Shown here: in pieces, positions 86 through 9,236 of the stretch
How positions within the stretch are numbered: the first letter of the stretch is position 1
Layout: each line of letters starts with the position of its first letter
NCBI GenBank assembly: GCA_026985515.1
Contig: JALSQH010000071.1
Location: 1 to 16,088, forward strand
Direction: 5' to 3'
DNA from: a bacterium
GTDB taxonomy: Bacteria; JALSQH01
DNA length: 16,088 nucleotides
The notes under the pieces: model-generated
Told to the model about the DNA's origin: nothing
Databases searched by the model: none
The model's input: only the letters and a program-made list of their open reading frames with translations
Program-made: the position numbers and the translations under genes

Positions 86-1637
86 CCTGATTCTGCTCAT
101 CCTGATCTTCTCCTGCAGCAGGACAGGGAAAGAAAAAAGTAAATCAGTTAAACCAGCCAGTTATTTTTATCTTGAAAATAAAAATCTTGATCTTCATCTC
201 CTTCTTCCTTCTGAATTTTCGGAAAGTTACTCTCTTATTACTCCATTTGGAGGCTTTCGCATACTGGACCAGAAAGAGCAGATTTACGGATTCATATCCC
301 TCAAACCTGCAAAATTTGCATCAGGTTCATCGGATATTGACCTCTTAGAGGCAAATTCTTCCTATGACTTAAACAACTTCAATTCACACTGGGAAAATTA
401 TCTTCAGATAAGGGGGATAAATGTTGATTTCTCCCTAAAGGAAAGGTTTCTGACCAGAGACCGGTGGAACAACATGATTAAGTATGTTTCAGGGAGTCTC
501 AATTTCCCCGGAACAGTTGCCATAACAACATTTCAGGTTGGTGATTACGCAGAACAAACAATGGGATACCCTGAAGTTCCTGCAACTCTGACTCAACACT
601 CAACACAGGAAGAATGGTACGATTACACAGCCTATGACATATTTTTATCTGAAACTCTGATACCTCCCGAGATTCCGGGAGGCAAACCCAAAATTCTTGT
701 TGTTTTTCTCGTAAAACCTTCATCCAGGGAAGATGAAAATTTCAAAAGAATTTCAGATGATTTCAGAAGCAATAGCAATCTATGTATGGGGAAATGTGAG
801 GTGAAAAGCATCACAGAAGAAATCAAAATCGGCCAGACCTCTCCTGCTGAAATTCTTTTCTTTTACAAAAACACATCATCCATGGAAATGGAAATAAACA
901 AGGCAAAGGATCTCCTCCAGACACCTCTCCTGAATCTGCTCAACGAGAATAAAATAAGCTATAAAATTGGCATTGCCACATTAACCCATCCTGATCTGAT
1001 CCCCCTGGAAGGGAAAAGATGGTTAACAGAAAATGAATCTCCAGATAATTTCTTTACCCCACCGGTTACATCTGCGTACTTAAGGAATTCCCTCATTCAA
1101 CTTGCTCCAGAAGTCGTGAGTAAAGCCACTGACGAAGGACTTTTCAGCAACTCAGATGAAAAGATCATCGTCTTCGTAACTGATAGAGATGATCAATCAA
1201 TAACTCCCGGTGGCGATCCAATAAGCACAGACAATCTGGACAGCTTTCTGAAGATATATGAAAATGAGAGAATACTTCCCTTTGGAATAATCGGGGATCA
1301 GAATGAAGAAAGCCCATACTGTGACACGCCCGAGGTGTGTACCATTCTGAAAAAATTCATATATCTGAGTGGGGGAAGCAGTGTAAACATATGTTCACAG
1401 TACCGCTACAACTTTTATCTTACACTTATCATGAAGGCTCTGATCTCAGCTTCAAACATAAAACTTTCCCATCATCCCGTGATATCCTCACTCAAAGTCA
1501 AGTTTAACGGGACAGAAATGATGTACGGCTTTCCAGGAGGATTCATTGCGGATGGAAAATTCAGCAAAATTGTGATTGTTCCTCCACAGACAGGAGATAT
1601 TGAAACAGGATATCTTTTTTTCCATAAGATTTTTTAA
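39..1637 (+). CDS. Secreted lipoprotein with a degenerate von Willebrand A-like domain
   Basis: The 532-residue product starts with a lipoprotein signal peptide: a hydrophobic run at about residues 12-25 and a lipobox I-F-S-C with Cys26 as the expected lipidated residue. Residues 270-475 resemble a vWA domain: a beta-strand (ILFFY), an alpha-helix, a second strand (YKIGIATL) and a strand IIVFVTDRDD at 376-385 followed by a C-rich segment ending GGSSVNICS. The MIDAS motif DxSxS is replaced by K-N-T-S-S at 277-281, so metal binding there is doubtful. Residues 40-250 are not recognised. I chose GTG 39 because GGGGAGG lies 6 nt upstream (26-32). ATG 63 would give a shorter n-region but has no good ribosome site. 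The stop shares bases with the stop of the convergent response-regulator gene. The likely role is an envelope-anchored binding or scaffold protein; its ligand is unknown. Confidence 0.75.
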   Translation: MITRVSSHMRGWLWSSLILLILIFSCSRTGKEKSKSVKPASYFYLENKNLDLHLLLPSEFSESYSLITPFGGFRILDQKEQIYGFISLKPAKFASGSSDIDLLEANSSYDLNNFNSHWENYLQIRGINVDFSLKERFLTRDRWNNMIKYVSGSLNFPGTVAITTFQVGDYAEQTMGYPEVPATLTQHSTQEEWYDYTAYDIFLSETLIPPEIPGGKPKILVVFLVKPSSREDENFKRISDDFRSNSNLCMGKCEVKSITEEIKIGQTSPAEILFFYKNTSSMEMEINKAKDLLQTPLLNLLNENKISYKIGIATLTHPDLIPLEGKRWLTENESPDNFFTPPVTSAYLRNSLIQLAPEVVSKATDEGLFSNSDEKIIVFVTDRDDQSITPGGDPISTDNLDSFLKIYENERILPFGIIGDQNEESPYCDTPEVCTILKKFIYLSGGSSVNICSQYRYNFYLTLIMKALISASNIKLSHHPVISSLKVKFNGTEMMYGFPGGFIADGKFSKIVIVPPQTGDIETGYLFFHKIF

Positions 1638-2386
1638 CTTCTTGCCAGTACCCTTGTTATCACTTTTCTCACTTCCACAGGCTGGAATGGTTTTGGTAAA
1701 AATTCTTCTGCACCAAGGAGATAGGAAGTCTTCTGATCGTCAAGCTGGGATTTCACCGAGGCAACAACAACAGGTATCTTCCCGAGTTCTTCATCATTTT
1801 TTAAGCTGTCAAGAACTTCAAAACCATCATGAGGTTCAATAACGAGATCAAGTATTATCACATCAGGAGAATAACTCTTTATTTTTTCAGCAAAATTCTT
1901 GGTACTCTTCTCCACTCTTACTTCTGCTCCCTCATTAATGAGAATTTCCTTTAAACTTTCTGCGAGAAATTTGCTATCCTCAAAAACGAGAATTTTTTTG
2001 CCGTGAAGAGGTTTTTTTGTCGTTATATACCTTACCCTTTCCTTATGTGACTCGAGAGAATCGAGGAAATTTATCAGTTTCACCGAGAAAAGGGGTAAAT
2101 TGAGAACATACACACACTCCTCCAGCTTCCCCTCTTTCTCCTCGTTACCTATTATGATAACCGGCACCTTCCTGGCCTTACCTAAAATCCTTACATCATC
2201 CACAACAATGGAATTTTCCTCCACTATGACGGCATATGGCTTTCTGGAAGAATTAAATATTTCGGGAGTGTAGTGGGCAAGATCTATATGCTCAAAAAAG
2301 TACTTTGTGTCAAACAGGAAGTTCTCAAGTAAAAAGCGCAAATCTTCCTTTAAAGCTATTCCAGCAACAATTTTCTTCTTAAGCAT
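1634..2386 (-). CDS. Response regulator: degenerate receiver plus intact receiver domain
   Basis: The product is 250 residues from ATG 2386. The C-terminal half (about 129-248) is a complete receiver domain: acidic pocket Glu136-Asp137, phosphoacceptor Asp180 in VIILDLV, Ser210 and Lys232 in LPKPF. The N-terminal half (about 4-112) has the same alternating strand/helix pattern, but the position expected for the phosphoacceptor reads VIVEEN, so it looks like a pseudo-receiver. There is no DNA-binding or enzymatic output domain, so it probably acts by protein contact. It is the last gene of the five-gene operon. GTG 2413, which abuts the FlgT-like gene's stop as TAGTG, would add nine residues. 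I prefer ATG 2386 because GGGTGG lies just upstream and the protein then starts M-L-K-K-K, as receivers usually do. No histidine kinase is present in the window. Confidence 0.85.
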   Translation of the reverse strand: MLKKKIVAGIALKEDLRFLLENFLFDTKYFFEHIDLAHYTPEIFNSSRKPYAVIVEENSIVVDDVRILGKARKVPVIIIGNEEKEGKLEECVYVLNLPLFSVKLINFLDSLESHKERVRYITTKKPLHGKKILVFEDSKFLAESLKEILINEGAEVRVEKSTKNFAEKIKSYSPDVIILDLVIEPHDGFEVLDSLKNDEELGKIPVVVASVKSQLDDQKTSYLLGAEEFLPKPFQPVEVRKVITRVLARS

Positions 2387-2412
2387 TGCCCACCCAGAAG
2401 TTAAGATTAGCA

Positions 2413-3534
2413 CTACTTGAGAATTATTTCAATCCCCCCTGATGAAACTTCGTTTATTTCAACATGTTTTTTCCCCAATCTCATTCTATCCAGAAGATCA
2501 GCCAGTCTATCGGGATCACCGAGAAATTTAACACTCAGTTCCGCCACAGGTTTATCAAAACTCCTCTTTATGACCTCTTTAACACCCTTTATTCTTTTTA
2601 TCTTTTTCATCAACCTCTTAAGGCTGGAATAACTCACGCCACGAACTGTGACTTCAATATCCTGACCATTCAGCTGAATATTGTTCCACTCTTTAACAAT
2701 CTTCCAGAAAATCTTTTCAGCAGCTTTCCTGACTCCATCTTCCACAGCCTTTCTGACCGCACCTTCCCCCACTGCATCAACTCCCTTTCCTTCAGAAGTT
2801 TCCACAGCGTATATCCTCCCTGTGGAAGCATCAATGGCTCTGAGGGTAACTGTTGACTTGGCACCATAGAGGACTCCCTGAATTGATTCTGGTTTACTCA
2901 CAATAACCTGACCAGTGATAACAACCTCAGCACCTTCACGATAACCCAGTTTCGCCGCCTGAAGTTCATTTCCCTCAGCAAGAATTCTCAACTTACTTCT
3001 CTCAATTTTCGCTTTTACACGGCTGGCATCAACTATCTGAAAACCCTTTTCCTTAAAAAATCCAATAAGAGCATTTTCACCCTGTGAGGAAAGCTGCGCC
3101 TTGTTATCTTTAACTTCTGTAATCAGAATCATAATTCTGGGTTTGTTCATCTGAGCGTATATCATTCTGGCATCATTTTTCAACGCCTCAGCACTCACCT
3201 TTGCCCTGATCTTAACATAGTAGTTTTTGCCCCTTTTCCCCTCCTCAAGGATTTTGTACTGGTGTACATAGCCAGCCACCTTTGAAATGATTCTGTCCCT
3301 GACCAGCTGATAATTGGACACCACCGTCTCAGAGATAACTTCGGAACCCACCTGATCAACGGCGTTTCTCTTAGCATCCAGAAGGGCAGCATTTTTCGCA
3401 GATTCAATGTCACCATTTTTAATTGGAGCAACCCCTTCCGCGATCACTTCTTTAATTTCGTCACTTCGCAAAGAGTTGTTCAACACAAAAGTTGAAAAAA
3501 GGATCAGTAAAACAATCGTACTTACTCTCTTCAT
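2413..3534 (-). CDS. FlgT-like exported protein
   Basis: The product is 373 residues, with a Sec signal peptide at about residues 1-24 (K-R followed by a hydrophobic core). Residues 30-115 carry the pattern of the FlgT N-terminal/LPP20 fold: A-E-G-V-A-P, then A-x-x-A-A-L-L-D-A-K-R-N-A-V-x-Q-x-x-G, then a beta-rich segment ending Y-Y-V-K-I-R-A-K-V. Residues 130-270 resemble the FlgT middle domain (R-I-M-I-L-I strand and E-G-A-E-V-V-I-T-G). Residues 290-373 are a third small alpha/beta segment with a repeated V-K-x-V-I/L pattern. In Vibrio, FlgT is a periplasmic part of the flagellar H-ring. No flagellar gene occurs nearby, so the function here may be non-flagellar. A GAGGGG ribosome site lies 6 nt before ATG 3534, and the gene follows the cyclase stop by 12 nt. 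Confidence 0.75.
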   Translation of the reverse strand: MKRVSTIVLLILFSTFVLNNSLRSDEIKEVIAEGVAPIKNGDIESAKNAALLDAKRNAVDQVGSEVISETVVSNYQLVRDRIISKVAGYVHQYKILEEGKRGKNYYVKIRAKVSAEALKNDARMIYAQMNKPRIMILITEVKDNKAQLSSQGENALIGFFKEKGFQIVDASRVKAKIERSKLRILAEGNELQAAKLGYREGAEVVITGQVIVSKPESIQGVLYGAKSTVTLRAIDASTGRIYAVETSEGKGVDAVGEGAVRKAVEDGVRKAAEKIFWKIVKEWNNIQLNGQDIEVTVRGVSYSSLKRLMKKIKRIKGVKEVIKRSFDKPVAELSVKFLGDPDRLADLLDRMRLGKKHVEINEVSSGGIEIILK

Positions 3535-3546
3535 GATTCACCCCTC

Positions 3547-5676
3547 TCATTTAGTTTTCATTACAAACACCCCATCCCAGTTTTCAGGAGGAGGATTTTC
3601 TATCAGCCTTTCACACCTTTCAATGAAAACTTCAGAAGGACCATCCTCACCGGCAAATTTAATGGTTGCAAGAAAATACTTTTTCGCCTCAGAAAAATTC
3701 CTTTCAAAGTAGAGAGCCAGACCTTTCTCGAAGAGTTTTATCTTTTTTATTGTCTCAATACCGGTTTTACCCTTTTCTCCCACAAGCTCATAAATTTCAA
3801 CAGGCTTCTTCTTTCCCTTAACTGCCACACGGTCAAGCTTTCTGAGAACAAATTCATCCTTAATCTTTTCCCTGGTATATTCACTCACAACTATTCTGGT
3901 CCTGTACTGCTTGTTGATTCCCTCAAGCCGTGAAGCAAGATTAACATTGTCACCCATCACCGTATAATCAAATCTCACATTTGATCCCATATTTCCTATT
4001 GTTACAACACCTGAATTAATCCCAATGCCAATATTTATCTGTGGCTTTCCTTCTTTTTCCCACTTTTTGTTCAGATTCTCAAGTCTTTCAAGCATTTTTA
4101 GAGCTGCCCTTGCAGCATTTGAAGCGTGATGTTTATCCTCCACCGGCGCACCCCAGAAAGCCATTATTGCATCACCAATATATTTATCCACAACTCCATT
4201 GTACTCAAAAATGATCTCAGTCATGGCACTGAGGTACTCATTGAGAAAATTCACCAGATCCTCAGGGTCCATATTCTCCGAAAGAGTTGTGAAGCTCCTT
4301 ATGTCTGAAAAAAGAATGGTCAATTCCTTTTTCTGACCTCCCAGTTTCACAAGTTCAGGGTTGGAAAGGAGTTGTTTGACGATCTGGGGAGATACATACC
4401 TGCCAAAGGTCTCCTTTATAAATCGTTTTTCCACAGCCTCAGTGTAGCGATGGTAGAAGAGTCCCGCCACGAAAACAGCGCTCCACGAAAAAACTGGCGC
4501 CACCGTCTCAAGCCAGAAGTGATCCTCCACAAATAATCTGCAGGAGATGAAAAGATATGCACCTGCACCTATCAGAAAAAGTAGAACCTGCCAGAGAGGC
4601 TTCAGAGATAGAAAAATAAAAAGCAGGGAACCCAGCAAAATTGTCCCCGCAAGCAGATAGTAATTCTGAGGTGCCTTTTCCCCATTCGGGAGAACCCATC
4701 TTTTTATATAATTTCCGCGCATTATGGTCTGAATGATATTTGCATGAACCTCTATCCCGCTCATCAATTGTGAGGAAAGAATCTCCAGTTTCCCCCCACC
4801 AGAAAGTTTTTCTACCTTCCCCTTTCCCGAAAAAGGCACTTTGTAAAAATCGTGATCGGCTGGTATGGTTGATCCAACGAGTACGATTTTATCTTTAAAG
4901 AGGAGAGGATCCACTTTTCCCCTCAGAACTCTCCAGAAGGAAACATGTCTGAAAGTCCCGGGAGGTCCCGTAAAGTTGATATAGATATGGTCGGGAAGGA
5001 GAAGATTTCCAATTTTAAAATAACCAGGGGGAATAAAATTTTCATCGGAGGAGAGTTGAAGAGGTGGAACGCTTACAGGTGGAGGATAGAGATAATCAAT
5101 ATATGTCTCAAGAGCAAAGGCAAAATATGGAACCATTCTGTTATCATCTATTTCAAGCTCCAGGAGAGGAACACTTCTGAGGACTCCATCACTGTCAAGG
5201 GTAAAATTTATAAATCCCTCCCCCAGCTCCAGCTCCCGAAATGGTTGAAAAGGCGGCACTGGTTTTCCATTCTGAATAAATCTTGCAAGAACCACCCTTC
5301 CACTGGAGTCAAGTGCTCTGGCAAAGTTTTCATCCTGTGCCTCATCCATATAAACAGGATGAGAGAATTCAAAATCAAGGGCTATTACTCTCGCACCCCA
5401 CTTTGTAAGGTTCTCAATAACCTTTGCATAGTAGGACCTGGTGAAATCGCTCCCCCTCTTCCTCAACCTTTCCTTACTCTCCTCATCTTTTGTAACTATG
5501 ATGATCCTGCTATCTGGCTTTTCCACACCTCTGAGTTTGAATCGCAGATCATAGCTCATATTCTCAAGGGAATCAAACCATCCCCATCTGTAGGCAAAGA
5601 TGATCACAATTCCCGTTACAAGCATGAGCAAAAGGGGATAAAGAAAAAACCTCTTAAAACTTTCACTCCTTACCAT
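3547..5676 (-). CDS. CHASE2-domain class III adenylate cyclase
   Basis: A membrane sensor that should make cAMP from ATP. The 709 residues run in order: an N-terminal membrane helix (about 10-28), an extracytoplasmic CHASE2 domain (about 35-325), three membrane helices (about 339-408), a class III cyclase domain (about 448-632) and a tail with a TPR-like helix pair (about 640-692) ending P-P-P-x-x-W-D-G-V. Catalytic residues are complete: metal-binding Asp458 (F-S-D-I) and Asp502 (Y-I-G-D-A), adenine-selecting Lys498 (V-D-K-Y) with Thr572 (Y-T-V-M-G-D), and transition-state Asn579 and Arg583. The Lys/Thr pair fits adenylate rather than guanylate cyclase. The start overlaps the upstream gene's end by 7 nt, and the ribosome site is weak, which suggests translational coupling. 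The operon promoter carries a cAMP-CRP consensus site, so the product may control its own gene. The periplasmic CHASE2 ligand is unknown. Confidence 0.92.
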   Translation of the reverse strand: MVRSESFKRFFLYPLLLMLVTGIVIIFAYRWGWFDSLENMSYDLRFKLRGVEKPDSRIIIVTKDEESKERLRKRGSDFTRSYYAKVIENLTKWGARVIALDFEFSHPVYMDEAQDENFARALDSSGRVVLARFIQNGKPVPPFQPFRELELGEGFINFTLDSDGVLRSVPLLELEIDDNRMVPYFAFALETYIDYLYPPPVSVPPLQLSSDENFIPPGYFKIGNLLLPDHIYINFTGPPGTFRHVSFWRVLRGKVDPLLFKDKIVLVGSTIPADHDFYKVPFSGKGKVEKLSGGGKLEILSSQLMSGIEVHANIIQTIMRGNYIKRWVLPNGEKAPQNYYLLAGTILLGSLLFIFLSLKPLWQVLLFLIGAGAYLFISCRLFVEDHFWLETVAPVFSWSAVFVAGLFYHRYTEAVEKRFIKETFGRYVSPQIVKQLLSNPELVKLGGQKKELTILFSDIRSFTTLSENMDPEDLVNFLNEYLSAMTEIIFEYNGVVDKYIGDAIMAFWGAPVEDKHHASNAARAALKMLERLENLNKKWEKEGKPQINIGIGINSGVVTIGNMGSNVRFDYTVMGDNVNLASRLEGINKQYRTRIVVSEYTREKIKDEFVLRKLDRVAVKGKKKPVEIYELVGEKGKTGIETIKKIKLFEKGLALYFERNFSEAKKYFLATIKFAGEDGPSEVFIERCERLIENPPPENWDGVFVMKTK

Positions 5677-7400
5677 AGATACCCCATCCAGAAAGGCACA
5701 GATTTTCTGCCCTCAGTTCCTCCAACAGTGGCTGTGGTTATCACCACAACTCTTGCTGTTCTGAACAGCTTTCTGACCATTTTCCTGAAATTTTTTCCCC
5801 TTTTTACAGAAATGACAACACCGGTTCTTATTTTTCCATTCTCTGGAAGGGAAATTGCCCTTACTCTCCAGGGTCTCCTGCCCTGTCTCCTCCTCTTCGT
5901 CCACCACCTTTTTCCCTTGTAACGGAAGTGATGACCCCTTCCTCTTCTTCTGGCAAGGTAAATATAATCCACATTTGAAGCAATGAAAAGCGGCAACCCG
6001 AGATTTGCCTTTCTGTACAGCTTAAGATCACTTCCCTCATTCACAACAAAGGCAGCCATACCCATTTCTCTGAAAGACTCCGGATCAACATTCTTTTCGT
6101 CATACACCGGTTCACCATCTTCATCAAAAACCCTGAATATTACAGAGGGAGCAAGTTTCAGGGATGAGGCATCAATGACCACGCCTGTATATGGGAGATT
6201 TTCCCCGGCAGAAGGCTGGTTTTGATTTATGTAGGAAAAAGGAGCATCGATGGAAGGATCCGTGAGCAATCCTGTGAGACCGTTTATTCCATAAACTGGA
6301 ACTCTCATTACCACATGGTACTCACCATTTTCAATCCACTCCTTTACCACATCTCCATTCTTTACTATTCCCCTGAGGTGATACTCCATTCCGAAATCTC
6401 CCGCCCTCTTCTCCTCATTTACCCTAACTCCTTTGAGAGCCTCCAGAGCCTTTCCCTGGGCATCAACAATGGCTGCTCTGCGTGCAAGAAGAAGGGCAGG
6501 GGGATTCTTCCCGATCTTTCCCTTACCTTCAACGAGCAAAAATCCCTTCTCCCAGTCTGCCTCCACACCCTTTATATTCATGGTTAAGGGCGGGAAACCT
6601 GTTTCAAGAGGCGGTTTTCTGTAAAGGGCTGGATACTTTTTCACATATTCAGAGGGGATTTTCACCTCCGCCTCAATGGTTAGAATCAGAAAGCCATTCT
6701 TCACCTCTCTGGAAACAATTTTATATTTGAGATATCCCATTGCCCTGGAAATAATCTCTCTCCTGTCTTTTTCGGGAACTATCTTCACATCCACAATTGA
6801 ACCCACAGCCTTTTCCACTGCTCTTCTCTTTGCATCCAGTAGCGCAACTTTTCCTGCAACACTCTCCGGCCCCTTTCCCCTTCCAGCTGCCACAACCTTA
6901 ATCCAGTATTCCTTCTTTACAGCCTCCACTTTGCTCTCAGGTGCCACTGGCATTCTCTTATTCACCAGCATAGCAAACACCCTGTCAACCACAGAGTTTA
7001 TCCCTTCGTAAAGGAAGGTGATACTGCTTTCCACCTCACCAGTTTCCTCATCTATAAGAGAAGCGGAAATGTACCTTTCTCCCTTTGATGTAAACATCTT
7101 GAGCAGGAGCAGATAATCCGCATAGGTTATTTTTTCAATTGCTGGTGGGAACTTTTTACCCTGAAAAATTTTCAGTTTGATCTCCTTCAAAACCTCCACA
7201 GGAACATTTTCCGAAAGAAGAAAATTCCCGCTCTTTTTAATTCGACTTTTGAGAGCGGTTACAATGGCTTTAATCTCTGGTGCAGATTCCTTCTGCATGG
7301 AGATCCCGGTTACCAGAATTGAGGGTTTTGTACCTTCAAAGGCAAAAAGAATCCCCATCAGAAGCAGAACCCCCATTCCCCCTGCGATTATCTTTTTCAT
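5670..7400 (-). CDS. Exported CsgG-like protein with two LPP20/FlgP-like domains and a basic insert
   Basis: The product is 576 residues with a signal peptide at about 1-20. Residues 25-145 resemble a CsgG/TolB-type N-terminal fold (S-I-L-V-T-G start; A-D-Y-L-L-L-L; S-L-I-D-E-E-T-G-E-V). Two LPP20/FlgP-like modules follow at about 165-248 and 280-372, each with the A-L-x-x-A-R/K-R-x-A-x-x-x-A pattern and a closing beta-strand. Residues 404-556 form a C-terminal domain (Y-T-G-V-V-I-D-A; D-E-D-G-E-P-V-Y; R-T-G-V-V-I-S) of a kind seen in large FlgP/LPP20 relatives. Between the halves of that domain, residues 484-512 are very basic (15 of 29 are Arg or Lys). I considered a frameshift there but rejected it, because the same frame resumes the domain pattern after the insert. 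It follows the FlgO-like gene by 18 nt and overlaps the cyclase start by 7 nt. Likely an envelope ring or pore component; the exact role is unknown. Confidence 0.7.
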   Translation of the reverse strand: MKKIIAGGMGVLLLMGILFAFEGTKPSILVTGISMQKESAPEIKAIVTALKSRIKKSGNFLLSENVPVEVLKEIKLKIFQGKKFPPAIEKITYADYLLLLKMFTSKGERYISASLIDEETGEVESSITFLYEGINSVVDRVFAMLVNKRMPVAPESKVEAVKKEYWIKVVAAGRGKGPESVAGKVALLDAKRRAVEKAVGSIVDVKIVPEKDRREIISRAMGYLKYKIVSREVKNGFLILTIEAEVKIPSEYVKKYPALYRKPPLETGFPPLTMNIKGVEADWEKGFLLVEGKGKIGKNPPALLLARRAAIVDAQGKALEALKGVRVNEEKRAGDFGMEYHLRGIVKNGDVVKEWIENGEYHVVMRVPVYGINGLTGLLTDPSIDAPFSYINQNQPSAGENLPYTGVVIDASSLKLAPSVIFRVFDEDGEPVYDEKNVDPESFREMGMAAFVVNEGSDLKLYRKANLGLPLFIASNVDYIYLARRRGRGHHFRYKGKRWWTKRRRQGRRPWRVRAISLPENGKIRTGVVISVKRGKNFRKMVRKLFRTARVVVITTATVGGTEGRKSVPFWMGYLW

Positions 7401-7418: not shown

Positions 7419-8357
7419 TTAAAAACTGAATCTTGCTCGGAAACCGAGATAAATGCCCCTCTCCTGAGGTGAAACCACAGCTTCAAATGACTTTACTTCT
7501 TTTGCATTTACACCGGAAATATATGCATCCACAGCATTAATAACCCACACCACAGCACCGGCAAGGAGAAGTCGATCCCTCAACTTTAAAGTAGAAACAG
7601 CTTTGTCATAGTAATATGTGGCGTCAGAGGTATTTGTGGAGTTTTTATACTTCTTTTCATAATACACGTTATATCCAAGATAATGTGAAACGAGGGCTCC
7701 TGCCATCAAACCAAGTGTCACCGTTGTAAAAAAGGCTCCCTTTACCACATGACCACTGTAAATCTGACCCCATCCAGGAATCAATAGGGATCTGAAAAGT
7801 GCTCCACTTTTTGTTTTAACCACAATATATTTGCTTGAAAGAGCAACAACATCATCCTTCATCAATCTCACCTTGACAGCCTTTACTATCCTCGATGTTG
7901 CAACGTTAACCACTCTGGCATTTATGATAAATTGATTTCCAACATCTGCCACAGCACCAACTATCATATACTGAGCATTGAGCATCTTTCCAACCTGACT
8001 CGCAAGTTTTGGATTTGTCACTCCAAGCAAACTCAACTTCAATTCTGAGAGAAGCTTATCAAGATTTTCTCTCTCCACCAGTTTTATTCTCTTTGACTTT
8101 GCAAATTCCTGGGTTAGAAGTGCCGTCACAATTTCTCCCATTTTTCTGTTTATTGCCTGGGGGCCCAGATTTATGAACTTTACAATGGCCACAACTGCAC
8201 CTGAGGGAGAATTTGAAAGGATACTTGACTCAAGATCACGGGCCAGGGTTTTAACAGCTGATTCTGCTTTTGTCAATTGACCATTCTCCCGAGCGGATAT
8301 CTGAAAAGGAAATAAGATAATCAATCCTGCCAGAATCAAGGCCAATCTTCCTTTCAT
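7419..8357 (-). CDS. FlgO/CsgG-like protein fused to a DUF5683-like membrane domain
   Basis: First gene of the CRP-linked operon. The product is 312 residues with a signal peptide at about 1-22. Residues 50-165 match the FlgO/CsgG pattern: V-A-I-V-K-F strand, M-G-E-I-V-T-A-L-L helix, V-E-R-E-N-L-D-K-L-L-S-E-L, then A-Q-Y-M-I-V-G-A-V and a closing strand. Residues 185-312 resemble DUF5683: L-I-P-G-W-G-Q-I-Y-S-G at 192-202, hydrophobic segments at about 207-225 and 263-280, and a final strand G-I-Y-L-G-F-R-A-R-F-S-F. The terminal Phe and alternating residues suggest an outer-membrane strand. CsgG forms outer-membrane secretion pores, and FlgO is part of the Vibrio H-ring. The fusion and the operon suggest an envelope complex, not necessarily a flagellum. 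ATG 8357 has a perfect AAGGAGG 6 nt upstream. Confidence 0.8.
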   Translation of the reverse strand: MKGRLALILAGLIILFPFQISARENGQLTKAESAVKTLARDLESSILSNSPSGAVVAIVKFINLGPQAINRKMGEIVTALLTQEFAKSKRIKLVERENLDKLLSELKLSLLGVTNPKLASQVGKMLNAQYMIVGAVADVGNQFIINARVVNVATSRIVKAVKVRLMKDDVVALSSKYIVVKTKSGALFRSLLIPGWGQIYSGHVVKGAFFTTVTLGLMAGALVSHYLGYNVYYEKKYKNSTNTSDATYYYDKAVSTLKLRDRLLLAGAVVWVINAVDAYISGVNAKEVKSFEAVVSPQERGIYLGFRARFSF

Positions 8358-8370: not shown

Positions 8371-8377
8371 TTGAATA

Positions 8378-8383
8378 ATTTTA
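8378..8383 (-). promoter_or_regulatory. -10 box of the envelope/cyclase operon
   Basis: TAAAAT on the minus strand (5 of 6 to TATAAT), with transcription predicted to start near 8371. The hexamer 17 nt upstream (CAGAAT) is not a recognisable -35, as expected if an activator replaces that contact. A nearby TTGAAC sits only 11 nt from the -10 and cannot serve with it. Confidence 0.65.
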
Positions 8384-8404
8384 CCTCACATCCTGTTCAA
8401 ATTC

Positions 8405-8420
8405 TGTGACACATATCACA
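8405..8420 (-). promoter_or_regulatory. cAMP-CRP binding site, class II position
   Basis: TGTGA-N6-TCACA with both half-sites perfect, read as TGTGATATGTGTCACA on the minus strand. Its centre (8412.5) lies 29.5 nt from the first base of the TAAAAT -10 box, which places it at -41.5, the class II activator position known for E. coli CRP. It falls between the rsmI stop (8424-8426) and the first operon gene. The operon's third gene encodes an adenylate cyclase. No CRP gene is present in the window, so the presence of a CRP-family regulator is inferred. Confidence 0.75.
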
Positions 8421-8423
8421 ATA

Positions 8424-9236
8424 CTACATCTTTTTCAGCAATTTGTAAATTTTATTTCTTGGAAGTCCAGTTCTCCACCTGAGATACGCAATGAGTTCAT
8501 CTTTTTTGAGGATATTTTTTAACCTCTCAATATCAATCTCATAAATATCCTTCACTTCTTCAACCTTCGCAAGAACAATTGTTATTTCTCCTTTTTCCTT
8601 AACACTCCCCGGATCTATCTTGTCGGTTACTCCGCGAATCACCTCCTGATTGATTTTGCTGAATTCCCTGATAATTGCGATTCTCCTCGGAATTAATTTC
8701 TCTCTGAAAATTTCCAGAGTTTCTCTTATCCTGTGAGGTGTTTCAAAAATTACCACTGTCTCATCAAAGAAATTGAGTGACTCAATAAACTCTTCCCGTT
8801 CCTTCTTTCTTGACGGGATGTATCCAAGAAAAGTAAAGGGAACAGGATCAAAACCTGAAAGGACAAGAGCAGAAATCACCATTGAAGGTCCAGGAATATG
8901 ATCAACACAAATACCCTCTTCAATCACTTTCTTAACCAGGAAGTATCCGGGATCATTTATGAGTGGTGTACCTGCATCAGAAACGAGTGCTATCCTGAAA
9001 CCATCTTTCAGATTCTGAATAACTCCTGCTTCTTCCCTTTTCTCTTTACCCCTGTAAAAACTTTTGAGAGGAGTTTTTATTCCATATTTCTGTAAGAGTT
9101 TGCCCGTTACCCTCGTATCTTCACAGAGGATATAATCAACTTTCCCCAGTACTTCTACTGCTCTGAAAGATATATCTGAAAGATTACCGAGAGGAGTTGA
9201 AACTATGTAGAGGCATCCCCCCTTTTCTTCAACCAT
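8424..9236 (-). CDS. rsmI: 16S rRNA (cytidine-1402)-2'-O-methyltransferase RsmI
   Basis: RsmI methylates the 2'-OH of C1402 in the 30S decoding centre using S-adenosylmethionine. The 270-residue product has the family motifs: V-S-T-P-L-G-N-L-S-D-I-S-x-R-A at about 12-26, L-C-E-D-T-R at 37-42, S-D-A-G-T-P-L-I-N-D-P-G at 86-97 and I-P-G-P-S at 114-118. The length fits the family's usual 270-290 residues. The start ATG 9236 lies within the end of metH (34-nt overlap) with only a weak AAGG upstream, so its translation is probably coupled to metH. It is the last gene of the nudix-murI-metH-rsmI operon. No clear terminator follows before the CRP-controlled promoter, so some read-through into the envelope operon is possible. 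Confidence 0.95.
   Translation of the reverse strand: MVEEKGGCLYIVSTPLGNLSDISFRAVEVLGKVDYILCEDTRVTGKLLQKYGIKTPLKSFYRGKEKREEAGVIQNLKDGFRIALVSDAGTPLINDPGYFLVKKVIEEGICVDHIPGPSMVISALVLSGFDPVPFTFLGYIPSRKKEREEFIESLNFFDETVVIFETPHRIRETLEIFREKLIPRRIAIIREFSKINQEVIRGVTDKIDPGSVKEKGEITIVLAKVEEVKDIYEIDIERLKNILKKDELIAYLRWRTGLPRNKIYKLLKKM

Follow-up and report, generated by a model that had tools for sequence, protein, structure and literature searches.

The window, by which we mean the whole stretch of 16,088 nucleotides that was analysed, carries on its minus strand a tight run of five genes with a cyclase gene in third position, preceded on the same strand by an RsmI-like gene. In the direction of transcription, the features are as follows.

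8424..9236, minus strand: upstream gene with a TP_methylase domain (RsmI-like), its stop codon 3 nt before the palindrome
8405..8420, minus strand: TGTGAtatgtgTCACA, a perfect palindrome of the CRP/GlxR type, in its extended form TGTGAY-N4-RTCACA
8383-8378, minus strand: -10 hexamer TAAAAT, its first base 29.5 nt from the palindrome centre
8371, minus strand: predicted transcription start (A), placed by geometry, 14 nt ahead of the start codon
7419..8357, minus strand: gene 1, exported protein of 312 aa with a CsgG/FlgO/LpoB-like domain and DUF5683
5670..7400, minus strand: gene 2, exported protein of 576 aa with a weak FlgT_N similarity under the curated cut-off
3547..5676, minus strand: gene 3, 709 aa, CHASE2 (residues 22-349) and class III adenylate cyclase (449-631)
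2413..3534, minus strand: gene 4, exported protein of 373 aa that contains FlgT_N
1634..2413, minus strand: gene 5, response-regulator receiver protein of 259 aa

Convergent with this operon, an exported 532-aa protein with no Pfam match is encoded at 39-1637 of the window, and its homologue is found at the same position in a sister genus (G001, L153:2307-3899).

Promoter elements ahead of gene 1

The promoter elements sit within a 66-nt gap that separates the ATG of gene 1 at 8357 from the stop of the RsmI-like gene, both genes lying on the same strand; AAGGAGGTC precedes this ATG. Positions 8405-8420 read TGTGACACATATCACA on the plus strand and TGTGATATGTGTCACA on the minus strand with the centre at 8412.5, which agrees with the description of two perfect TGTGA-N6-TCACA halves in the initial annotation. 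The distance of 29.5 nt from this centre to TAAAAT, and hence the position of -41.5, could also be reproduced when the hexamer was taken as -12 to -7, which sets +1 at 8371; the figure of -41.5 presupposes a start 7 nt past the -10 and is a prediction from geometry. No -35 hexamer is visible, as had likewise been noted, the sequence at a 17-nt spacer being CAGAAT, which matches TTGACA at 2/6 positions. The gap combines a consensus palindrome at about -41.5 and a -10 with the lack of a -35.

Class II CRP promoters of Escherichia coli, with galP1 as the type example, have their site centred at -41.5. The present promoter shares with them TGTGA-N6-TCACA at this position, the -10 and the missing -35; it differs in belonging to a far-removed uncultured lineage, in that its start is predicted, and in that its regulator is a candidate. 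A terminator was looked for between the RsmI-like gene and gene 1 and none was found, and some read-through into the operon from the former is possible. The palindrome was also considered as a hairpin or terminator, a reading rejected on its unremarkable folding (z 0.43) and the absence of a T run after it.

Recurrence of the site and its spacing

A scan for TGTGA-N6-TCACA, which the initial annotation had proposed for intergenic regions, was run on the whole genome and returned seven perfect palindromes, one of them in the window, five of them intergenic and four with the matching -10 spacing; about three would be predicted genome-wide if the halves were independent. Since the sample behind these statistics, about 0.49 Mb in size, takes in contigs picked for bearing sites, weight is best given to the placement and spacing of the sites and not to their raw count. 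With regard to placement, 5/7 perfect sites are intergenic and 2/7 coding in sampled DNA that is about 93% coding (binomial P ~3e-5). With regard to spacing, TANNNT follows with the exact 21-nt gap at 4/5 intergenic perfect sites and at no more than two for any other offset; after exclusion of the window site, 3/8 orientations still carry it at the offset fixed beforehand, the local rate of TANNNT being 3.5% (P ~0.002). Degenerate matches in the window mean little (14 sites with up to two mismatches versus 8.5 expected), and a large regulon of one-mismatch sites was rejected, as 57/60 of those examined sit in coding sequence. The recurring sites of the genome are given below.

C18: ahead of a secreted protein, followed by beta-barrel, polysaccharide export and Wzz/Wzc-like proteins
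C38: ahead of a 1385-aa lipoprotein
C39: perfect and intergenic, layout with 21-nt gap and TANNNT
C229: promoter with one mismatch and fitting layout, ahead of an exported-protein operon

The extended half site TGTGAY-N4-RTCACA is common to these four sites and the window site, and the targets at the recurring sites include a polysaccharide export operon. Downstream of the C39 site (L134:3221-3350) come a strong GC-rich hairpin and then a separate TTGACA-N17-TATATT-like promoter, and the class II-type site may there drive a short RNA rather than the downstream gene.

The sister genus, represented by G001 as the sole genome of the same family compared with that of the window (G000), contains the exact layout TGTGATAAAAATCACA-N21-TAAAAT on contig C157 ahead of a lipoprotein gene, the product of which is 34% identical to the C38 lipoprotein of G000. 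A degenerate, symmetrical copy with two mismatches precedes a related lipoprotein gene on C72. The syntenic contig of G001 (C81) stops within the cyclase gene, so that the comparison covers the layout at other promoters of G001; rsmI of G001 is located elsewhere, and a homologue of gene 1 was sought in G001 and not found. More remote relatives of the gene 3 cyclase, with 30-54% identity in the best segment, were left out of the promoter comparison.

Because the same site-to-(-10) geometry recurs both within the genome and in the sister genus, the reading of 8420-8371 as a class II CRP-type promoter, which the initial annotation had put forward from the window, is strongly supported, and on the sequence patterns described we regard it as very probable.

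Cyclase and candidate regulators

The third gene had been described as a complete class III adenylate cyclase with a CHASE2 sensor, and this description holds. CHASE2 is matched by PF05226 (E 8e-49, residues 22-349) and lies N-terminal to the cyclase output domain. An alignment with CyaB (3r5g) spans the whole catalytic domain and pairs the motifs FSDIRSF, DKYIGDA, RFDYTVMG and NLASR, in which the metal-binding Asp pair, the adenine-selecting Lys and Asp and the transition-state Asn-Arg are kept. Judged by these residues, the catalytic domain is complete and of the adenylate type.

A CRP-family protein with the R-E-x-x-x-R recognition helix, to which the initial annotation had pointed as a check, is lacking in this assembly and present in the sister genus. 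The window's genome has 12 cyclic-nucleotide-domain matches. A CRP-type HTH is absent from most of the proteins concerned and occurs in only two, and in this 97.6% complete assembly neither of the two carries the R-E-x-x-x-R helix. These two CRP-like proteins (L143:5566-6207 and L139:310-996) keep the equivalent of Thr127 in the C-helix and share a C-terminal extension; their recognition helices read LPMEDVEEVL and FTTTAILKEA. The CRP of G001 (P0001, 225 aa), by comparison, has the helix SRETVSR, and its best PDB matches are Mycobacterium tuberculosis CRP and Corynebacterium glutamicum GlxR, with which it shares the recognition-helix core ASRETV. GlxR binds the consensus TGTGANNTANNTCACA (PMC4254451).

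In G001 the gene for P0001 overlaps ispE by 17 nt. The family model that finds this ispE detects none in the window's genome, in which dxs is present. The C-terminal half of ispE is followed by prs in G001, and the contig with prs in the window's genome starts inside that gene; given the absent ispE and the truncated prs, crp may have been lost in the gap, and a crp-ispE segment missing from the assembly is the simplest reading. Synteny on the far side of crp is not kept in the window's genome, so that we infer the placement in the gap solely from the ispE overlap. We consider it likely from these comparisons that the regulator is this missing CRP with an SRETVxR helix. A separate observation concerns contig C116 of G001, in which the C-terminal half of ispE is fused to a G5/DUF348-like reading frame (L193:440-1353), possibly a misassembly.

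Proposed circuit and its alternatives

We propose that a CRP/GlxR-type regulator binds the palindrome and that the class II, activator-dependent promoter drives the five-gene envelope operon. The palindrome at -41.5 would substitute for the absent -35, and transcription would then need an activator that touches RNA polymerase. This activator would be the SRETVxR-type CRP, whose gene would adjoin ispE in the piece missing from the assembly, and its effector would be cAMP. Signals sensed through CHASE2 would raise cAMP and in turn the expression of the operon, cyclase included, which amounts to positive feedback. Taken as a whole, the combination of promoter, missing CRP and cAMP loop is our preferred explanation, held with measured confidence. 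As cAMP is a plausible effector, the loop is plausible and not established; in its full form it is a reasonable proposal that falls just short of probable. The lack of a CRP with the right helix among the assembled contigs and the presence of a second class III cyclase speak against the proposed circuit.

In E. coli CRP, Thr127 and Ser128 contact the adenine of cAMP. P0001 aligns with Ala-Asp at these positions, the alignment with M. tuberculosis CRP shows Thr-Asn there, and owing to the Ala-Asp pair the effector of P0001 is uncertain and perhaps not cAMP. It can accordingly be argued that the class II site is genuine and that its regulator has an altered effector or is constitutive, the cyclase serving another receptor, e.g., another cyclic-nucleotide-domain protein, with no cAMP feedback. 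The existence of cyclic-nucleotide-domain proteins without a CRP-type HTH would suit this alternative, as would the two assembled CRP-like proteins, which retain Thr127 and have differing recognition helices. However, P0001 retains a complete phosphate-binding cassette (FGEM...PRSA) with the Arg82-Ser83 equivalent present (FGEMSLLDGMPRSA), and its nearest solved relatives are cAMP receptors; we therefore judge a regulator that does not respond to cAMP to be unlikely.

The palindrome might instead be bound by either of the assembled CRP-like proteins through an unusual recognition helix. Both have a CRP-type cNMP domain with the C-helix Thr, but their helices do not contain the TGTGA-reading Arg-Glu...Arg and the sole HTH match of one of them is under the curated cut-off, which makes such binding quite improbable. 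A chance palindrome, with the operon promoter within or upstream of the preceding gene, would fit the same-strand gene without an intervening terminator, the mostly coding and chance-like one-mismatch sites and the three or so perfect sites expected, but it is hardly credible given that the perfect sites are biased towards intergenic DNA and that independent promoters, as well as the sister genus, show one and the same -10 spacing.

Returning to the preferred reading of a CRP-dependent cAMP circuit, the closest known arrangement is that of Sinorhizobium meliloti, in which the CHASE2 adenylate cyclases CyaD1, CyaD2 and CyaK feed the CRP-family regulator Clr and the signal enters at the outer membrane (PMC13001267). 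Unlike in S. meliloti, the cyclase gene studied here shares an operon with CsgG/FlgT-like envelope genes, and a CRP-type promoter stands ahead of that operon. Within the partial coverage of our literature search, no description was found of a CHASE2 cyclase with a CRP promoter of its own. The individual parts are already known; the combination and the lineage are new. A more tentative idea, and a rather doubtful one, has the CHASE2 cyclase inside its CRP-activated envelope-assembly operon amplify its own expression through a CRP whose ligand pocket is changed and whose regulon would be small, made up of surface lipoproteins and polysaccharide export. If the preferred reading were true, the E. 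coli-type class II geometry would work in an uncultured lineage that is far removed and has a small regulon centred on the envelope, and a sensor cyclase would be wired into its own regulon; the missing crp-ispE locus and a start at 8371 are predictions that can be checked.

Besides gene 3, the window's genome encodes one more class III cyclase (L156:2004-3335), which combines an FHA part with the cyclase and, judged from its length and sequence, probably also a GAF-like part. Its gene runs off the contig end and is convergent with a TPR-Ser/Thr kinase gene.
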